Source: Chitinispirillaceae bacterium (lineage in GTDB: Bacteria; Fibrobacterota; Chitinivibrionia; Chitinivibrionales; Chitinispirillaceae). From it: a stretch of 64,000 bases of DNA. A program made the translations under genes and the position numbers. How positions within the stretch are numbered: position 1 is the first letter of the stretch; each line of letters opens with the position of its first letter. The stretch is from the NCBI GenBank assembly GCA_016929595.1, contig JAFGIN010000220.1, forward strand, positions 1 through 64,000. The letters are read 5' to 3'. A model generated the notes under the pieces. The model did not search any database, was not told the origin of the DNA, and saw only the letters and a list, made by a program, of their open reading frames with translations. Shown in pieces: positions 52,992-64,000 of this stretch.

Positions 52992-54170
52992 CTACATGAA
53001 CCGGACGGTAACCTTTTTGAGATACTTTTCTTCGAGCACTCCCGCGATTCGTCTGACAATTGCGTGGCGAAGTTCGACGTTGTGATTTCCGATGATCCGG
53101 TTGGCGTCGTTGAGCCGTGTACCGACAACAAACAGGATCTCATCGGAGTCAAGAAACTGGTTGTAAAGTTTAAATGCCGCATTACCACTTTCTGAAGCGC
53201 AGTACGGATCTTCAAGGTATTGCGCGGTTCTGGTCATGGTGATGATTCCCTCGGTGACAAGGTTGATGCCTTCCATGATCGAAAACGGTGGGATTTCAGG
53301 GTGAAAGCTTCTCATGTCAACGTTGATCGGGCGATTGAGTTCCCGAGCAATAATTTTTGCAGTAGTACCACCGCATATCACTTTTTTCCCGTCAAAACCG
53401 GCGCATTGTCTCGCCATCTCAGGGTCATCTTCGATATTTACAGGAGGGCCGGTAAAAATGATAAGCTTTCTTGGAATGCGGAAATAGATCACTCCACAGG
53501 TGGTGTCATCACCACTGCGCCACGCATCATGTTCCTGCGCCTGTTTGACAAGTACTGTGGCAAGTTCACGGGCACTCATGTCTGGTCTTTCGAGAAGTAA
53601 TTTTTGTATATAGGTCTGAACCCCTTCACTTCCCCAGCCAAGCGGCATTGCAGATGTTCCCATACCTGATTGACAGAGACCATCAGAATGAAAGATGATT
53701 CGGTCGCCTTCTGATGCGTTAAATTGTGTTAAGGACAGGGTGACCGGTTTTCGACGACCGGCAGAGATCGTAATAGTACTTTTAGGTGAAATAATCTGTT
53801 CATCATTTTTAAAATAGATAAATGATGGATTGTCGTATTCGATGATGCTGACTGCGCCACTGGAAGAGATATCTACTATGGTAAAGGTGGCATAGCTGAT
53901 TTTCCTTACTTTGCAAACCGGCAGGGTTTTCATGATCGTTTTAGCAGCCTTTTCGATATCCATCCTTCCTGCCATGTATTTCAGGGCCATCGTGGCAGTC
54001 AAGGTCGCAAGGACATTAGCTTTAACACCGCTTCCAAGGCCGTCAGAAAGTACCGCGACAATGCGGTTTTCCTCTTTAATTCTTTTAAAAAGAAAAGCGT
54101 CTCCGCAAACCCTGCGGTTATGTTTGAAACACGATGCACTGCCGATCTCGACACTCCAGGGCTTTTTCAT
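52992..54170 (-). CDS. SpoIIE-type (PP2C-like) serine phosphatase
   Basis: 392 residues from the ATG at 54170; a TTG at 54188 overlapping the hydrogenase stop is a possible alternative. Residues 15-240 form a PP2C/SpoIIE domain with metal-binding motifs GDAFLF, VLSDGLGSGVKA, FHSDGL and GDDTTCGV. The C-terminal half (FTGPPVNIEDDPE to the end) is the extra domain found in proteins next to sensory hydrogenases (CGGTTAKIIAREL, NLVTEGIITMTR). It dephosphorylates Ser/Thr, probably on a STAS protein or other target. Last gene of the operon. Confidence 0.9.
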   Translation of the reverse strand: MKKPWSVEIGSASCFKHNRRVCGDAFLFKRIKEENRIVAVLSDGLGSGVKANVLATLTATMALKYMAGRMDIEKAAKTIMKTLPVCKVRKISYATFTIVDISSSGAVSIIEYDNPSFIYFKNDEQIISPKSTITISAGRRKPVTLSLTQFNASEGDRIIFHSDGLCQSGMGTSAMPLGWGSEGVQTYIQKLLLERPDMSARELATVLVKQAQEHDAWRSGDDTTCGVIYFRIPRKLIIFTGPPVNIEDDPEMARQCAGFDGKKVICGGTTAKIIARELNRPINVDMRSFHPEIPPFSIMEGINLVTEGIITMTRTAQYLEDPYCASESGNAAFKLYNQFLDSDEILFVVGTRLNDANRIIGNHNVELRHAIVRRIAGVLEEKYLKKVTVRFM

Positions 54171-54184
54171 AGAAGATCCATTAT

Positions 54185-55915
54185 TCAATCGGTCCCGAGA
54201 TTGTTTGAATTCTGTTTAAAAGATTCGATGATTGAGTCAAGTACTATTTCTGTTTCTGATGCGTTCTCTCCAAGTAAATAAGCAATTTTCTGGACCATTG
54301 TAAGGTTTTTCTGAATAACATCCCGTGCCCTCTTGATAATCTGTTGTTTATGTATGGAAGGCGTGGTGATGTCTGCAAATACGCCACCAATAACGGCGTT
54401 TGGTTCGATGGTAAAAATTGACCCCTGAATAATTCTGTTTTCAACTTTGAAATCACGCTGGATGATATCTTCACCGGTTTCAAGTACATGTTTGAAAAAG
54501 TCATGAAAGGGAACGACCTTATGGAGTGAAACGTTTTCAAGCCCCGGAGAGGAATCGAAAGCTGTTTCGATTGCAGATCCGAAAAGAGTGGCGAAATTAC
54601 GGTTGCTCTCAATAATACGGAGGTGCTCATTGACTATGACAACCCCTGATGGCATGGTCCGGATAAGTCCGCCAGCCTTGTTTTGTGCAAGTTTTCTCAT
54701 GTAAGTAACACACATGCTGCGTTCAGCTTTACCTGACAAAAGCGCGATGGCAAAATCTCGGCATGAATCGTAGCCGCATCCACCGCAGTTAAGCTGATCT
54801 TTAATCGAATGTTTACCAACCTGACGGAGTGCATCAGTAATTTCTGTCTCTGTGTACAGCGCTATTTTAACGGTAGAGTCAGAGACAAATTCTGCGATCG
54901 GTAATGATGGAGTACGGGGAAATTTTTTGTTCGGATAGCTGACACTGTTGACAATGGCAAGCCTTTTCCCTATTGTAGAACCCCGATCGGTGCAGAGCGG
55001 ACCGTTAATGCATCCGCCTTCACAGGCAAGTGCTTCAATAAATAGATTTTCCTTTATATCTTCAGGGTTAATTCCTTCCAGAGCGGTTCTTATATTTTTA
55101 AGTCCTGAGAAAGAGATAAAACCCGGGTCGTGAATTGCACAGTTGGATTTAATAGTTGCAGACATTCCACCGTCAATCGGATATAGAGTTCCTTCGTCAG
55201 CTGCGTTAGGAATAAAAACATCATCCGGGTTGAAAGCGATAGTGTTTATGTCAATGTTATCTTCCTCAAACCATTTCCTCAGGTCTTCAAAAGTGATTAC
55301 CGTATCGATCAGATTGGGATGGCTGTCTGCTTCCCGTTTTTTTGCAATACAGGGGCCGATAAATACGATGCCAACAGATTCTCCATAACGCTTTCTGAGC
55401 ATTTTGCAATGAGAAAGCATGGGTGAAAGGAAACCGGTTATTGAACTTGTCAGTTTTGGAATGTAATGAGTTATCAGATCTACAACAACCGGACAAGCTG
55501 AAGAGATGTATAATTTACCGGTGTCGGGGCATGAGAGCTGCTGAGCGATATGCGCTGAAACCTGCTGAGCACCAAGAGCTGTTTCGGAAACTCCGAAAAA
55601 ACCAAGCTTTTTAAGAGCATTTATTATAACCGATCCTTCTGAAAGCGCAAATTCGCTTTTGTAAGATGGCGCCAGTGATGCGATAACCTTTTTCTTTGAT
55701 TTAAGAAGTAGTTTTACTTTGCCAAGATCATCACGCACTCGTTTGGCATTTGCCGGACAGACGCTGACACAGTGGCCGCACAGCACACAAAGTTCAGGTA
55801 TAATAGCTGCTGCGCCATTCTGAAATTTGATTGCCTTTACTGGACACTCCCTTACGCACTTATAGCAATCCTGACATTCTGTTTTTTCAGTGTAAACAGG
55901 ATTGAAATTATTCAT
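54185..55915 (-). CDS. Sensory [FeFe] hydrogenase (group C / HydS-like) with PAS domain
   Basis: 576 residues. Two N-terminal 4Fe-4S clusters (C14/17/20/24 and C43/46/49/53), an H-cluster domain with its four cysteines C141 (SSACP), C189 (GPCIAKK), C298 and C302 (ACEGGCINGP), a further 4Fe-4S motif (C377, C380, C385, C402) and a C-terminal PAS domain (415-530). In catalytic hydrogenases the L1 motif is TSCCP, with an extra Cys for proton transfer; here it is SSACP, so Ala replaces it, as in sensory group C proteins. The PAS domain probably passes the H2/redox signal to the PP2C gene downstream. Ribosome site AGGAG. Confidence 0.92.
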   Translation of the reverse strand: MNNFNPVYTEKTECQDCYKCVRECPVKAIKFQNGAAAIIPELCVLCGHCVSVCPANAKRVRDDLGKVKLLLKSKKKVIASLAPSYKSEFALSEGSVIINALKKLGFFGVSETALGAQQVSAHIAQQLSCPDTGKLYISSACPVVVDLITHYIPKLTSSITGFLSPMLSHCKMLRKRYGESVGIVFIGPCIAKKREADSHPNLIDTVITFEDLRKWFEEDNIDINTIAFNPDDVFIPNAADEGTLYPIDGGMSATIKSNCAIHDPGFISFSGLKNIRTALEGINPEDIKENLFIEALACEGGCINGPLCTDRGSTIGKRLAIVNSVSYPNKKFPRTPSLPIAEFVSDSTVKIALYTETEITDALRQVGKHSIKDQLNCGGCGYDSCRDFAIALLSGKAERSMCVTYMRKLAQNKAGGLIRTMPSGVVIVNEHLRIIESNRNFATLFGSAIETAFDSSPGLENVSLHKVVPFHDFFKHVLETGEDIIQRDFKVENRIIQGSIFTIEPNAVIGGVFADITTPSIHKQQIIKRARDVIQKNLTMVQKIAYLLGENASETEIVLDSIIESFKQNSNNLGTD

Positions 55916-56183
55916 TCAATTCTCCTGTGGCCTGGAGCAGTTTGAGGGTAAGTATTTTTTGTAAGATGGTGCAGTTCAATCGTGTATATGTTTCATTGTC
56001 AATAATAATTGATGGCCCGTTTTTACAGTTGCCCTGACACAGGCTGCCTTTAAGCTCCACTGTTTTCTCCAGGTCGTGTTCTTTTATGAATTGCTGTATT
56101 AATTGTAATATCGGGACACTGCCATTGACATAGCAGGAACTGCCCATACAGAGGGAAATTGTGTGAGTCTTCGTTGTATTCAT
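55908..56183 (-). CDS. Thioredoxin-like [2Fe-2S] ferredoxin (NuoE-like)
   Basis: 91 residues with the four ligands C12, C17, C49 and C53 (CMGSSC, CQGNC), the pattern of NuoE/HydC-type [2Fe-2S] domains. Probably passes electrons to the hydrogenase-like protein, whose gene it overlaps by eight bases. AAGGAAAA precedes the ATG. First gene of the three-gene operon. Confidence 0.9.
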   Translation of the reverse strand: MNTTKTHTISLCMGSSCYVNGSVPILQLIQQFIKEHDLEKTVELKGSLCQGNCKNGPSIIIDNETYTRLNCTILQKILTLKLLQATGELNE

Positions 56184-57583: not shown

Positions 57584-58531
57584 CTACACATGATTTCTCA
57601 GCATGAGTTCCATCGGATGAGGATGGAGATAGTATTGATGTTCCAGATAAACTGGTTGATATTTACGGACATAATGGTTGATTAATGTAACGGGTACGAT
57701 AAGCGGTACCAGATGGTTGTGGTAGTTGTCAATAATCTCCAGAAGTTCGGCTTTTTCATCAGGGGTGAGGTTGTTGCGGAAATATCCCGAAATATGCATC
57801 AGTACGTTAGTGTTTTTGCTTACTGTAGCAATTAATGATAGTGCATCGCAGAGCCGGCTGTAATAGCTCTGGTATACTTTTAATGTGTTTGTTTTCTTTG
57901 CTGTTGCAATATACGCACCAAGCTCCTTGAGTAGTTTAGGGCTATGCGACATTATCAAATACTTGTGCTGTGCATGAAATGTCATCAGATTGCTGAGCAT
58001 TTTTTTTTCTTCAAGAAGTCTGTGCCACCGATGAACAATAAACACCCGCTCTATAAAGTTCTCTCTTATTTCTGAATCGTGAAGCCGTCCTTCGTCTTCA
58101 ATGGGAAGTAATGGGAAAGATGAAATGAGATGGTTTGCGAATACTCCTCTGTCGGATTTTTCAAAAACTCCCTTTTTATAAACCTTAACTTTGCTGAGTC
58201 CGCAACTTGGAGATTTTGCTTTCAGAATATAACCACATAGAGAAGACGTTGTAAGTTCCCGGATCTTTTTTTTTGTCCAGGAGAACATCTGTTCAGACAG
58301 ATCAATTCCAGTTCTTTGAGTTTTCAAACGGATCTCGCCGGATTCATCGGTAAGATGCATTGCTTCACGGGGCACACTCATGCCGCATTCAACTTCCGGG
58401 CAAACAGGAATAAATTCTACATACTTTCCAAACACATCATGAATATAATGGTCAAGTTTGTGCCCGCCATCATAACGGACCTTGAACCCCAGAAGACATT
58501 TACTGATACCAACCAGTGGTTTTTCATTCAT
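57584..58531 (-). CDS. DUF523-DUF1722 fusion protein
   Basis: 315 residues from the ATG at 58531; an earlier Met at 58636 would overlap the coiled-coil gene and adds a His/Arg-rich stretch without support. N-terminal DUF523 (VGISKCLLGFKVRYDGGHK, FIPVCPEVECGMSVPRE, LKAKSPSCGL) with conserved cysteines, C-terminal DUF1722/YbgA (VFIVHRWHRLLEEKKM, FHAQHKYLIMSHSP, LEHQYYLHPHP). The same fusion is widespread, often near photolyase or MerR genes; function unknown (a thiouridine desulfurase role has been reported for DUF523-only proteins). Last gene of the ParA cluster, 37 bases after the coiled-coil gene. Confidence 0.9.
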   Translation of the reverse strand: MNEKPLVGISKCLLGFKVRYDGGHKLDHYIHDVFGKYVEFIPVCPEVECGMSVPREAMHLTDESGEIRLKTQRTGIDLSEQMFSWTKKKIRELTTSSLCGYILKAKSPSCGLSKVKVYKKGVFEKSDRGVFANHLISSFPLLPIEDEGRLHDSEIRENFIERVFIVHRWHRLLEEKKMLSNLMTFHAQHKYLIMSHSPKLLKELGAYIATAKKTNTLKVYQSYYSRLCDALSLIATVSKNTNVLMHISGYFRNNLTPDEKAELLEIIDNYHNHLVPLIVPVTLINHYVRKYQPVYLEHQYYLHPHPMELMLRNHV

Positions 58532-58568
58532 AATGTGTCTACTTATAAGGTTTGGATTGTGTAAGCCA

Positions 58569-59837
58569 CTATTGCCGTAGCCGTGCCCGCGCCTGTGAAA
58601 GTGCATGGTGCACCTTTTCGAGTGCCTTCTTTGCATTAGTCAATTCATCGCGTTCCCGGGTCAGGAGCTCGACATTGTGCGAAAGGGTGTCCCGTTCTCT
58701 GGTGAGCTCTGTCAGTAGTGTATGAAGCCGTGAATTTTCGGCTGAACTTTCATCAAGTTCTTCGGTGAGTCGCTCCTCTTCCATTTTACTCTCATCAAGA
58801 GCTCGCTGCATCTCGGTACATTGCTGACGTACATCATCAAACTCCTTTTGTCGCTCCTTATCTTTTAGAGTCAACATCTGTACCATTCGAACTGCCTGAT
58901 CACGTTCCTCTTCAAGAGCCCCCATTTCAAAGAGCATCTCTTCGAGAACCTTACGTTTCTCATCAAGCTGTTCTTCCGCCTGCACTAAGCGCTCCGATGC
59001 GGTTCGTTCATCGTCTACTGTACGTGTCAAATCTGTTTTTGCTTCTTCCAGTTCGTTTCGCAGAGCAATCTCGACTTCACGCGAACGCGAGAGCTGCTCC
59101 TCAAGATCGCTCACCAGTCCAAGCACGCTTTCAACTGCAAGTGCCGGATCCTCAGGAACTGGCTCGATGCGGATTTCCTGACGCACTGCTTCGGAAACTT
59201 TTCGTTTTACATTTTCAAGCCGCTTACGTCTGGTCTCGCTGTTGTCAGCAGTAAAAACAGGTTCTGCAGAAGACGTCGTGGTTTCATCATGCAGTGAGTG
59301 TTGTAATTCGGGCGGATTTTTTATAGCATCAACGCCCGGGCTTTCGGCTCTTTGAACCTGCTGATCAGCCACGTCAACTTTGTCGGTTTCGGTGATTGCT
59401 GAATCAGGTAATCGCCTGTTAAGGAGTTCTTCCTGTGCTTGCAAATCGTTCTGTTCCGGAAGTACTTCTTTGTTTTCGACGGCATCGTTTTTTTTAGGTG
59501 CGGTATTGGGAAACGGGACAATGTTCACATCAATATTATCCTGTTTTTTGAGATGAATTGTGTGCTCTTTTTCAAGAACTTCCGGAGTGGTGCCAGTGTC
59601 CTCATCTGTCGTTTCGACGGATGGTGCATTCTCATTCGCTATACTCTCCGAAGTATCCGCAGAATCGGATTCGAATACTTCTTCCGGTGCAGTTACAGCA
59701 GTTTCATCAATTGGCTGTTCGATAGAATGATCAGTGTTTTCATTCTCTGATTTCGCTGTGGTGTCTGAAACGACGGTCATTGCCGGTCGTAACCGCGGTT
59801 TTAGTTTGGGAACATTGGCATCAAAAGCTTTTCTCAT
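58569..59837 (-). CDS. Acidic, coiled-coil protein in the ParA cluster
   Basis: 422 residues. The N-terminal 210 are disordered and strongly acidic (long Glu/Asp/Ser/Thr runs, no domain); the C-terminal 210 form an almost unbroken coiled coil (LVSDLEEQLSRSREVEIALR, then Glu/Arg heptads to the end). No Cys, no membrane segment. The start overlaps the ParA stop by four bases with GGGAGG upstream, so it is co-translated with ParA and is the likeliest partner or adaptor, in the place where ParB would normally be. No family recognised. Confidence 0.75.
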   Translation of the reverse strand: MRKAFDANVPKLKPRLRPAMTVVSDTTAKSENENTDHSIEQPIDETAVTAPEEVFESDSADTSESIANENAPSVETTDEDTGTTPEVLEKEHTIHLKKQDNIDVNIVPFPNTAPKKNDAVENKEVLPEQNDLQAQEELLNRRLPDSAITETDKVDVADQQVQRAESPGVDAIKNPPELQHSLHDETTTSSAEPVFTADNSETRRKRLENVKRKVSEAVRQEIRIEPVPEDPALAVESVLGLVSDLEEQLSRSREVEIALRNELEEAKTDLTRTVDDERTASERLVQAEEQLDEKRKVLEEMLFEMGALEEERDQAVRMVQMLTLKDKERQKEFDDVRQQCTEMQRALDESKMEEERLTEELDESSAENSRLHTLLTELTRERDTLSHNVELLTRERDELTNAKKALEKVHHALSQARARLRQ

Positions 59838-60793
59838 ACAGCACCTCCCGGTGCGCTTACGAACTCTGTAAACCCGGCTCGAATTCGTTTCATAATCTCT
59901 AACTGCATGGCTTCGATATCACAGGCTCCTTTTGATGTGGGATCAAAGCCGAAAATTGGATAACCCTCGCTTGATGACTGTGCAAATTTAGTACATTGAC
60001 GCACTACAGTGTTTAACAGGTAGTCCGCGTAGTGGGTCTTAAGAGCATCAAGCGCTTCACGTGCAATCTTGAACGTTTGATTATATGAATTAACAACTAT
60101 AAAAATATTTTCAAGTTGATGCGAAAGGTCTTCCTCGAGCCCCTGAATGCATTCAAAAAGGAGCTTGAGACCGTCGTATGAGAGGAAATCGGCAAGAACC
60201 GGCACAATAAGGTCTGCGGCTGCCATAAGAGCGTTGAGGTTGAGCAGGCCGAAAGAGGGTGGCGCATCCATGATGATAAAGTCGTAGTTTCCTTTAACCT
60301 GTTCTAGTGCATTACGCAGTCGAAACTCACGACCCGAAAGGGGCATGAGTGCAAGGTCGATGGTGCTCATGGAAAGATTTGACGGTACCAGTGAGAGGCC
60401 GGGCATACCGGTTTCGATAATGACTTCAGAAATCGGGGTTTTACGAATCATTACTTCATGAAGCGTTCGCGGAAAATCGGATCCTTCGAGGCCGAGGCAT
60501 TTGGTGGCATGTCCTTGGCTGTCAAGATCAAGTACCAGTACCCGGTATCCCCGTTCTGCCAGACGAAAAGCATAAGAGGTCGAGATGCTTGTTTTTCCGG
60601 TTCCACCCTTGAAATTGAGGAAAAGCTGAACGCGCGGAGGAAAAGGGTCTGGTGTCCGTTTGAGCTTCTCCCGAAGAAGAACAAGGTCGCTTATTGTATA
60701 CGATTCTTTCTTACCGAGAATATTCTCGATCTGTTTGTTCGTAGTGCCTGCGACTACGGAGAGCCGCCTGGGACTGTATCGGATTTTATCCAT
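59834..60793 (-). CDS. ParA-family partition ATPase
   Basis: 319 residues. Deviant Walker A FKGGTGKTS (61-69) with signature Lys 62, VLVLDLDSQGHATKCLG (A' box), Walker B region IIMDAPPSFGLLNLNAL. Residues 10-50 form a helix-turn-helix-like extension (LSVVAGTTNKQIENILGKKE, YTISDLVLLREKL) like type Ia ParA proteins, so it may bind DNA. ParA proteins form ATP-dependent gradients on nucleoid DNA that move plasmids, chromosome origins or protein clusters. No parB or parS-like repeat is visible here, so a protein-complex cargo is more likely. AAAGGAAA precedes the ATG. Confidence 0.92.
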   Translation of the reverse strand: MDKIRYSPRRLSVVAGTTNKQIENILGKKESYTISDLVLLREKLKRTPDPFPPRVQLFLNFKGGTGKTSISTSYAFRLAERGYRVLVLDLDSQGHATKCLGLEGSDFPRTLHEVMIRKTPISEVIIETGMPGLSLVPSNLSMSTIDLALMPLSGREFRLRNALEQVKGNYDFIIMDAPPSFGLLNLNALMAAADLIVPVLADFLSYDGLKLLFECIQGLEEDLSHQLENIFIVVNSYNQTFKIAREALDALKTHYADYLLNTVVRQCTKFAQSSSEGYPIFGFDPTSKGACDIEAMQLEIMKRIRAGFTEFVSAPGGAV

Positions 60794-60874
60794 GATGTTT
60801 CCTTTTAACTAACACTATGCCTCCACCCGGCATTCCTGGTACTTTTTTGACAGTATATCATTCATGTTTTACTT

Positions 60875-62497
60875 CTAGCTCATAAAGAATCGAGGACCGC
60901 GTTGTGATATCATCCCCCGTTTCAACAGTGTTGATAATGAATCCATAACATCTGCCAATTCTGAACTGGTAAACTGCGACAGTTCCTCAGCGGTACGGCC
61001 TCTCAGTGATGTCCGAATTTCGCCGATCAATGATACTTCCAGTGCAGAAGATTTCTTCTCGGGCAAAGGGACCTGTTTAATCGGTTCTGGGGCTTTTTCG
61101 ACAATAACGGATTCAACAATTTTTGTTTTCTGCGGTTGTGAAACCGGAGGGGTGCAGTGATGGGTCTGCGGTTTTTGAACCGGCACAGATGGCTGCTCCA
61201 GTGTTGAGGATACTGATGGTACTCTGGTAACCGCTTTTCGCAAAGTTTCTTCGTCGAGTCGGGAAAGTTTATCAGCGATACGTCTGGCAGTCCGGCGGCG
61301 CTGCACAGGTGATGCATCAGGATCAACAACTTCTCCGGACCAGCGGGATACAGCATCTGCTGCGCACCTTCGCACTGAAGATTCCTGATGGTTCAGTGCT
61401 TTGGTTAATGCTGACTGAGCTTTTGGCTCGGGTCTTCCGGAAAGCATCTGCGCAGCCATTCGAGCGACACCGGGGTCTGAGTCAGATACCATAGTGGTCA
61501 GAGCATTTACTGCAGAAGGAGTGGTTATGAAACTCAGGAGCAGCACAGCACGACGACGTACCAGTGGACTGGGATCACTGAGCGCTCCAATTAATACAGG
61601 TTCGGCGTGTTCTTTTGCAAGTGCTGCAGCAGTATCAATGGCAGCGACGCGAACTTCAGGGCGTTCATCAGCGATTTCGCAGATTGCCTGAGATGCGTTT
61701 GATGGCTCACCGGCGGTTGCCAGTGCATTAAGCAGAGCCACTTTGACTGTCGGATCGCTTTCACGCTCAAGGGCTGCGATAATTGATAGTGCTGCTGCAT
61801 GTGAACTGAGTGCACGCAAACATTCCGCTGCGCGCTTGCGACGATCAGGATCTGCAGCTGCAAGTTCGTCTATTGAACGCTCGTATAAAGAAGTTTCGGT
61901 CCTGGTGGTAAAAAGTTCTTTCCTTTGCTCCGATCCGACATTCAGCAAACTCAGTCTGCCTGCTTTTTCGAAATGGTCTGCAAGACTGGAAACTGTTGAA
62001 ACTGAACTGGATGCCTTAAAGGCCCGCCCTTCATCGATACTGATACCCGCTTTTTGAGCCGCTGACTTCCACATCTTGAGTTGCTCGATTTTTTCACGCA
62101 TTTCAGCAATAAAACCGGCTAATGCAGCAAGATCTGTCTGTTCTCCAGGACTTTCGCTATCAATTCCACCAGGAGTGCTTGCAACTTGTGCACGCTCTAC
62201 AAATCCGGCCAGAAATTGTTCCCGCTCAGTTTCAAGCAAACGAACCCGTTCTTCGAGTTCAACAATACGTGATTTCATCGTAGTAGCAGAACTGCGTGCC
62301 TGAGCCAGAAGCATTTCGAGCTCTACTTCCCGGGCGCGTATCGATGCAATCACTTCTTTTTCCCGAAGCACTGCAGCACGTTCAGCTGCCAGTTCAGCAG
62401 TGAGCTGTGAGACCCGGCATTCGAAAAAAACAATCTTTTCCAGAGCTCCACGAAGGAACTCCTCAGGGCCACCTTTTGAAACGAAATTTTCTGCCAC
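60875..62497 (-). CDS. Coiled-coil / HEAT-repeat protein in the ParA cluster
   Basis: 540 residues. Residues 20-100 form a coiled coil; 130-200 are helical; 205-400 contain at least five HEAT/PBS-lyase-like repeats (DPDRRKRAAECLRALSS, DPTVKVALLNALAT, RPEVRVAAIDTAAALA, DPSPLVRRRAVLLLS, DPGVARMAAQMLSG, ESSVRRCAADAVSRWS). A Pro/Lys-rich linker follows, and the last 60 residues look like a small winged-helix domain (SLIGEIRTSLRGRTAEELSQ, LSTLLKRGMIS). Start is a GTG with GGAGG four bases away. First gene of the cluster; it probably scaffolds protein or DNA contacts. No named family recognised for the full chain. Confidence 0.75.
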   Translation of the reverse strand: MAENFVSKGGPEEFLRGALEKIVFFECRVSQLTAELAAERAAVLREKEVIASIRAREVELEMLLAQARSSATTMKSRIVELEERVRLLETEREQFLAGFVERAQVASTPGGIDSESPGEQTDLAALAGFIAEMREKIEQLKMWKSAAQKAGISIDEGRAFKASSSVSTVSSLADHFEKAGRLSLLNVGSEQRKELFTTRTETSLYERSIDELAAADPDRRKRAAECLRALSSHAAALSIIAALERESDPTVKVALLNALATAGEPSNASQAICEIADERPEVRVAAIDTAAALAKEHAEPVLIGALSDPSPLVRRRAVLLLSFITTPSAVNALTTMVSDSDPGVARMAAQMLSGRPEPKAQSALTKALNHQESSVRRCAADAVSRWSGEVVDPDASPVQRRRTARRIADKLSRLDEETLRKAVTRVPSVSSTLEQPSVPVQKPQTHHCTPPVSQPQKTKIVESVIVEKAPEPIKQVPLPEKKSSALEVSLIGEIRTSLRGRTAEELSQFTSSELADVMDSLSTLLKRGMISQRGPRFFMS

Positions 62498-62572: not shown

Positions 62573-63868
62573 TTAATCGATACTTTTTTTGAAGTTGCAG
62601 CAATTAGAATCGGAAACGGTGGCGATTGCGGCATGCCAGCGGTATCTGGCAAGATAGTTAAAGAATCGCCGATCAATGGTAATCCCGGTAGTATCAATGC
62701 AGGGGCATTCTCTATAGGTCTTATCAATCCGGTCCATTTCGTTTCTGGTTCGCAACAGCTCTGCCGCCCCGCAGGCTCCAACCGCCGAAAACTGGCCAGC
62801 AAGTTTTCCGGTTAAAGAGCTGGAGGCATGCTGCTTCATTGGTGGTACAATGGCAAAAAACAGTAGATTGCAGAACGTCAGTGCAATCCACCAGCGCATC
62901 TGCAAAACGGGCCTGGCAGCCCAGAGTGACCATACAAGAAAAAAACCGAAGGCTGTTCCGTAATATCCCGGTTTCGGCCCATGAACCAACAGGCCAAAGA
63001 GAATGCTGGGTGATATTCCGAGAAGCAGCAGGATGCGTGCATCAGGTGCTGCCCGTTTCCAGCAGGCAACGAGATAAACGATTCCTGCTGGTCCGAAAAC
63101 GCCTAAGCCGTAGAGAGTAAACCGTACGGCATAACGTAGCGCTTCGGAAATTGATGTTCCCATGAAAAACGAACTACCTTTTGCAAATAGGTGAAAGATT
63201 TCTATTGAAGAATCGACTGGCGATCTGTTCGAGGCAAGCATTGTTGGAACAAACCAGAGCGCACAGCACATCGAAAATAAAACGCCCATAAGAGAAAGCT
63301 GTCGGAACGATGGCTGGTATTTCCTCAATGCGTAGAGGAATGCAGGCAGCAGAAAGAGCGAGAGGTCCTGCCGGAACCCGATGGCGATACCGAAGGTTGC
63401 CGCCAGAACCACCGGACTGCGGTGTTGCTTTATGACTGCAATAACCTGGTAACAGATGATCGCAGAAAATCCGGCAAGTGCACTATAAATGACCGGTGCG
63501 CCTGCAAAAAACAATGGTAGCGGAAACAGGCAGAGAAAGAGGCGAATGCCACGTCCTGCCGGCACAAGAAACAATGCGGTTAGCATTATGGTCATGTAAA
63601 TTATTCCCTGAATTTGAAGGATCCTGAAGGGATTCTTGATCATCGGGTGGAGGAGCTGACCAAACAGAACGTGAAAGAAATACCCCGGTGGCTGCGGCTG
63701 ATGGAGCGAGGGGTTGAATGAATCAACGATTGCCAGTGCATAGTTGACCGAATCATAATCAAATGGAAATGAGGTGCCATAGAATAAAAAACCTGCGCTC
63801 CACAGAGTGAGAATCACCCAGAATTCAACGCTGGAAATAATTCGCTTCGCTTCCGCCATCGGTCCCAT
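62573..63868 (-). CDS. Multi-pass GT-C-like membrane protein
   Basis: About 431 residues with 10-12 transmembrane stretches. The N-terminal loop has FDYDSVNYALAI with an Asp pair after TM1 and HQPQPPGYFFHVLFGQ, the arrangement of GT39/GT83-type (PMT-like) transferases that use polyprenyl-phosphate sugars; RQDLSLFLLPAFL follows. The C-terminal 100 residues are soluble. It probably transfers a sugar on the periplasmic side. Start is uncertain (ATG 63868, ATG 63859 or TTG 63886). Same direction as the HEAT/ParA genes, 75 bases upstream of them. Confidence 0.72.
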   Translation of the reverse strand: MGPMAEAKRIISSVEFWVILTLWSAGFLFYGTSFPFDYDSVNYALAIVDSFNPSLHQPQPPGYFFHVLFGQLLHPMIKNPFRILQIQGIIYMTIMLTALFLVPAGRGIRLFLCLFPLPLFFAGAPVIYSALAGFSAIICYQVIAVIKQHRSPVVLAATFGIAIGFRQDLSLFLLPAFLYALRKYQPSFRQLSLMGVLFSMCCALWFVPTMLASNRSPVDSSIEIFHLFAKGSSFFMGTSISEALRYAVRFTLYGLGVFGPAGIVYLVACWKRAAPDARILLLLGISPSILFGLLVHGPKPGYYGTAFGFFLVWSLWAARPVLQMRWWIALTFCNLLFFAIVPPMKQHASSSLTGKLAGQFSAVGACGAAELLRTRNEMDRIDKTYRECPCIDTTGITIDRRFFNYLARYRWHAAIATVSDSNCCNFKKSID

Positions 63869-64000
63869 AACAGTATGATACCGCAACTGCTATCCGAATG
63901 CAAGAAACGAGGTATATTAATAGTTTGACTTTTTTTTAAATGCCTTTGCAGGTCTCGGAATTTTCCTCCTTAAATATCCCGGCAAAAGCAGCCATGCACA
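63869..64000. other. Window end, no gene seen
   Basis: Only 132 bases. A minus-strand AAGGAGG near 63966 is not followed by a start codon. Confidence 0.4.

Follow-up and report, generated by a model that had tools for sequence, protein, structure and literature searches.

PomXYZ positions the FtsZ ring in Myxococcus xanthus (PMC7993993, PMC10307791, PMC13170346). It has been described as a system of myxobacteria, and its orthologues were sought in fully sequenced myxobacterial genomes. No report of PomXYZ outside the myxobacteria was found in a literature search that had most subscription papers and all preprints beyond its reach. Here we examined a stretch of 64,000 nucleotides (the window) on contig JAFGIN010000220.1 (C77) of a 6.6 Mb draft genome (G000) from a Chitinispirillaceae bacterium of the phylum Fibrobacterota. 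The window encodes a ParA-type ATPase between a HEAT-repeat protein and an acidic coiled-coil protein. The comparisons below make it very probable that this genome contains a complete PomXYZ division-positioning system, acquired in the past from a myxobacterium resembling the Anaeromyxobacteraceae. The locus therefore carries a known system into a second phylum and does not represent a system of a new kind.

Gene order and homology identify a pomY-pomZ-pomX cluster

The window ParA was used to scan a genome collection, which gave 364 relatives. The best 80 were fetched and are almost all from Myxococcota, together with one other Fibrobacterota record. As only the best 80 of the 364 relatives were fetched, other non-myxobacterial carriers may exist. 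Among the fetched loci with enough contig, most have a match to the HEAT protein before the ParA and a match to the coiled-coil protein after it, all on the same strand. Dozens of genomes repeat this arrangement, which is far beyond chance. The window genes have the same order on one strand, pomY-pomZ-pomX as in M. xanthus and other myxobacteria, and the ATG of pomX overlaps the end of pomZ by 4 nt. Together these coupled genes make up the full pomY-pomZ-pomX set. A promoter and terminator scan of the locus found such sites no more often than in shuffled sequences.

An earlier sequence-only reading of the window had described four open reading frames (ORFs) and their domains. All four ORFs are present on the minus strand, and the domain features hold: a HEAT_2 match with a winged-helix-like end in the AlphaFold model, a ParA with a helix-turn-helix-like extension, and an acidic coiled-coil protein. 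That reading suggested a search for conserved synteny, and many Myxococcota loci do have the same order and strand. It also proposed a ParA-based positioning cluster with two scaffold-like partners and no ParB. This point stands as well. Matches to ParB in this genome lie on contigs C69 and C212 only and none lies on the window contig, so the locus is not a ParABS partition system. ParABS and the McdAB carboxysome-positioning system resemble it in having a DNA-binding ParA ATPase driven by an ATPase-activating protein (AAP) with a basic N-terminus. They differ in that the window has no adjacent ParB, its partners are PomX and PomY, and its ATPase has PomZ-specific rather than ParA residues.

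PomZ and PomX retain the residues of their interface

The window PomZ matches ParA/AAA_31 in Pfam (E 3e-46). It is 74% identical to PomZ of Anaeromyxobacter oryzae (L007; E 4e-178) and 62% identical to PomZ of M. xanthus AM003 (L046; E 9e-140). Residues 1-44 are a helix-turn-helix-like N-terminal extension. The deviant Walker A motif KGGTGKT (K62-T68, 60610-60590) retains K62 and K67. D91, the equivalent of catalytic D90 in M. xanthus, is conserved, and a lysine aligns with the DNA-binding K268 of M. xanthus.

M. xanthus PomZ has two partner pockets, one for PomX and one for alpha5, the helix by which PomY is modelled to touch PomZ. In the alpha5 pocket 8/8 residues are identical to M. xanthus, and 7/8 positions are invariant in 81 PomZ sequences, A147 being the exception. 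In the PomX pocket 7/13 residues are identical. The other six are conservative changes (F205Y, V229I, L242I, E248D, E256D and F257Y); five of them, E248D being the exception, also occur in A. oryzae. Ordinary Fibrobacterota ParAs differ at most of the pocket sites.

The window PomX is acidic (isoelectric point (pI) 4.65). It consists of an N-terminal AAP peptide, MRKAFDANVPKLKPRLRPAMTV, an acidic disordered region (residues 23-200) and a coiled coil (residues 225-422, 59165-58572). The coiled coil is 51% identical to that of A. oryzae (E 1e-57) and 32% identical to that of M. xanthus (E 4e-19). The N-terminus, MRKAFDANVPKLKPRL, is identical to A. oryzae across 16 residues. Published modelling places M1, K2, A4, F5, V9, K13, R15 and L16 of M. 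xanthus PomX facing PomZ, and K13 and R15 were shown to be necessary for activity. 7/8 of these modelled contacts match in the window protein (M1, A4, F5, V9, K13, R15 and L16), and K2 is replaced by arginine. Every feature that marks a PomX is present: K13 and R15 within a basic peptide at the N-terminus, a disordered region and a C-terminal coiled coil. The disordered region is acidic, whereas that of M. xanthus PomX is rich in alanine and proline and that of A. oryzae is less acidic.

PomY has the coiled coil, HEAT array and gD plan

The window PomY has a HEAT_2 match in Pfam (E 8e-22) and is 49% identical to PomY of A. oryzae (E 1.6e-90) and 32% identical to PomY of M. xanthus (E 1.2e-27). 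The AlphaFold model has a 97-residue N-terminal helix, which is the coiled coil (residues 11-107, 62467-62177), and a HEAT array at residues ~199-424 (61903-61226). A basic, disordered linker modelled with low confidence follows (residues 425-481). The model ends with a confidently predicted winged-helix domain (residues 482-540, 61054-60878), whose 59 residues form three helices and then two strands (HHHEE). The gD domain of M. xanthus PomY was published as 59 residues with three helices followed by two strands, so the window domain equals it in length and element order. Thus all four parts of the PomY plan are found: the coiled coil, the HEAT repeats, a linker that is mostly disordered, and gD. 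For the array, a Foldseek search of the PomY model gave HEAT-type and other helical-repeat proteins; for the C-terminal domain it gave no match.

The cluster was probably acquired from a myxobacterium

PomZ occurs in 2/168 Fibrobacterota genomes, at 89-100% identity. The second carrier (G003) is a metagenome-assembled genome of the same family, which is separate at family and order-group level from f8, the phylum's large family. All other Fibrobacterota matches to PomZ are at most 32% identical and lack most of the N-terminal extension. In the PomZ tree the window copy and the second Fibrobacterota copy (L006) group with Anaeromyxobacteraceae at 100/100 support. A tree of concatenated PomY, PomZ and PomX gives the same grouping, again at 100/100. 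The Anaeromyxobacter proteins are also the closest sequences; their host is a high-GC myxobacterium. Gain of the cluster by horizontal transfer from an Anaeromyxobacter-like myxobacterium is therefore most likely, and we infer a direction from Myxococcota to Fibrobacterota.

The two Fibrobacterota copies are 89.0% identical in PomZ, close to the values for RpoB (89.0%) and FtsZ (88.6%) of their hosts, which suggests that the transfer is old. PomX evolves fastest of the three, with 52.8% identity. Synonymous sites between the copies are near saturation, and the ratio of nonsynonymous to synonymous substitution (dN/dS) is 0.19 for pomY, 0.04 for pomZ and 0.14 for pomX. The genes are under purifying selection in both carriers. 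A family FtsZ tree was dropped, as two rows were apparently in the wrong frame and support was low, and an RpoB tree was used instead. It places both carriers in one supported clade of eight genomes, not resolved as sisters. Our reading of these data is a single old transfer from a myxobacterium into this part of the family, with later loss or relocation; two separate transfers may also account for them.

No empty insertion site was found in relatives, as the flanks are reshuffled there. Plasmid-borne spread was rejected, with no PomZ match at E<=1e-40 among 72,556 plasmids. Base composition was set aside as weak evidence for transfer; GC content at third codon positions (GC3) of the pom genes is close to that of the host, and nearby genes reach 0.47-0.52.

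One further locus (L056, BNCN01000008.1), titled 'Comamonas sp. KCTC 72670', has a pom cluster resembling that of Myxococcus, with the alpha5 motif present in its PomY. It probably derives from a mislabelled or contaminated genome.

Division in the host and alternative readings

FtsZ is present in the window genome (G000:C176:8703-9695) and in 59/61 genomes searched. MinE was found in none of the 41 genomes searched. Across this set no MinD model passed its cut-off either, with working positive controls. The MinC_C cut-off was reached only by a partial match in one order-level relative and by no family member. The host thus combines an FtsZ-based divisome with a PomXYZ cluster under purifying selection and no detectable Min system. 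Z-ring positioning would be the most economical function of the cluster.

Several points weigh against a complete division-positioning system of this origin. We infer its biochemistry, localisation and function by homology. The approximately unbiased (AU) test accommodates the Fibrobacterota pair either inside or just outside the Anaeromyxobacteraceae relative to the Anaeromyxobacter rows (p 0.38). Most close relatives of the carriers lack pomXYZ, so Z-ring placement in the family generally needs no PomXYZ, and in this host the system could be supplementary or repurposed. The window PomY has a whole-protein pI of 6.4, near neutral, against a reported 9.3 for M. xanthus PomY, and its condensate behaviour may therefore differ. 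It is also shorter, 540 aa against 682 aa (literature numbering). Finally, a strict motif search found no alpha5 helix (VQAALVAM-type, nine residues) in the window PomY, whereas M. xanthus PomY has one.

Among the loci compared, the strict alpha5 motif was found only in PomY of the Myxococcus/Corallococcus type and in none from Anaeromyxobacter, Archangium or Fibrobacterota; the published alpha5 logo was built from nine PomY orthologues predicted to have the helix. Alpha5 is thus a variable feature and does not define PomXYZ. With alpha5 missing outside Myxococcus and Corallococcus and its pocket in PomZ nearly invariant, the conserved pocket probably serves something besides alpha5. PomY proteins lacking alpha5 (e.g. 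loci L031, L057, L069 and L018) often have a short hydrophobic 'VAVLE'-like motif in the linker before gD, a possible alternative contact for the pocket.

Three facts lend some force to the possibility that a PomXYZ-derived system was repurposed to position another cargo, such as a polar or envelope machine, instead of FtsZ. Most family members lack pomXYZ and still divide with FtsZ, PomX diverges far more than PomZ between the two copies (52.8% vs 89%), and alpha5 is missing from PomY. Against repurposing, all three parts, including the coiled-coil/HEAT portion of PomY, are under purifying selection. The neighbour genes also differ between the two hosts, which means that the cluster has no alternative cargo gene accompanying it. 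We consider repurposing improbable.

Myxobacterial contamination of the draft, affecting the contig or its pom part, had to be considered since both carriers are multi-contig drafts (estimated contamination 3.6% for the window genome and 8% for the second) and the kin of the cluster are myxobacterial. The window has 41% GC, however, and GC3 of the pom genes (0.38-0.46) is near the 0.37 of 18 other window genes. Both flanks carry genes native to the Fibrobacterota family: other members have relatives of the hydrogenase and DUF523-DUF1722 genes at one end and of the membrane protein gene at the opposite end. The second carrier shares none of these flanking genes and has its cluster among different genes, also of ~41% GC. 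Contamination was rejected as very unlikely on these three grounds.

The sequence-only reading knew of no described system of this composition and put forward a candidate new positioning system, one that would be unrelated to PomXYZ. In keeping with this, none of the three proteins has a specific Pfam or NCBIfam name, but their homology to PomX, PomY and PomZ, a system already named in M. xanthus, together with identical gene order, matching domain plans and key residues, refutes that view and leaves an unrelated system scarcely credible. Homologues in a named ParA-adaptor system were what that reading itself had listed as a refutation.

Features of the locus and neighbouring genes

Features of the pom locus are collected in Table 1. 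For the downstream DUF523-DUF1722 gene the most likely start is 58531 rather than 58636: in the longer ORF, homologues begin to align at residue 38-42 and the Pfam match begins at residue 42. The layout given by the sequence-only reading therefore needs one correction: pomZ and pomX are coupled as described, and the overlap of the DUF523-DUF1722 gene with pomX is an ORF-calling artefact over a true gap of 37 nt. Its inclusion as a partner was also rejected, as the gene is found in 0/80 fetched pom loci and in relatives without pom. It is an unrelated host neighbour.

Table 1. Coordinates of the pom locus and its downstream gene in the window
Feature	Position	Strand	Basis
pomY homologue, 540 aa	60875..62497	-	HEAT_2 match, homology to myxobacterial PomY
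pomY-pomZ spacer, 81 nt, with AAAGGA ribosome-binding-like site before pomZ	60794..60874	-	
pomZ homologue, 319 aa, ParA/MinD ATPase	59834..60793	-	AAA_31 match, homology to PomZ
pomX homologue, 422 aa	58569..59837	-	Homology to PomX
NPEP-equivalent coding stretch of pomX, K13 and R15 kept	59772..59837	-	PomX orthologue alignment, literature contacts
DUF523-DUF1722 (TudS-like) gene, downstream host gene	57584..58531	-	Likely true start 58531

A sensory-type [FeFe]-hydrogenase cluster lies at 52992-56183 on the minus strand. Its products are a 576 aa hydrogenase protein combining Fe_hyd_lg_C, FeS and PAS domains, a phosphatase of SpoIIE type with 398 aa and a small protein of 91 aa that contains cysteine. 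In several family members the genes for the first two also lie side by side. Upstream of pomY, a predicted membrane protein is encoded at 62573-63886 on the minus strand. Its GC3 of 0.52 is above that of the pom genes, and homologues at 32-37% identity were found in four family members only. In the second carrier, pomX is followed on the same strand by a membrane operon (L105, G003:C26:34338-36771) resembling TolQ/ExbB-ExbD, a resemblance judged by sequence.

Proposed mechanism and significance

By homology with M. xanthus, PomX would use its coiled coil to polymerise, giving a single scaffold. This scaffold would be joined by PomY, by way of its coiled-coil/HEAT region, and PomY would condense on it. 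ATP-bound PomZ dimers would bind the nucleoid non-specifically and tether the PomX/PomY assembly. PomY would then enrich FtsZ and promote formation of the Z-ring. The nucleoid-riding PomX/PomY/PomZ condensate would thus set the midcell position of the Z-ring in a phylum that lacks Min.

We lean towards the view that a complete division-site positioning machine of three parts passed from one phylum to another, reached a Fibrobacterota lineage lacking Min, and works with the FtsZ of that foreign host. If this is true, such a machine is portable, and systems for Z-ring placement can be swapped by horizontal transfer. PomXYZ in a distant phylum offers a natural test of host requirements, as its working partners there must be, or once have been, a Fibrobacterota FtsZ and nucleoid. 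Divergent orthologues also inform the mechanism, as with the absence of alpha5 set against the conserved PomZ pocket. For the Fibrobacterota themselves, the cluster is a candidate for division-site placement without Min in two genomes.

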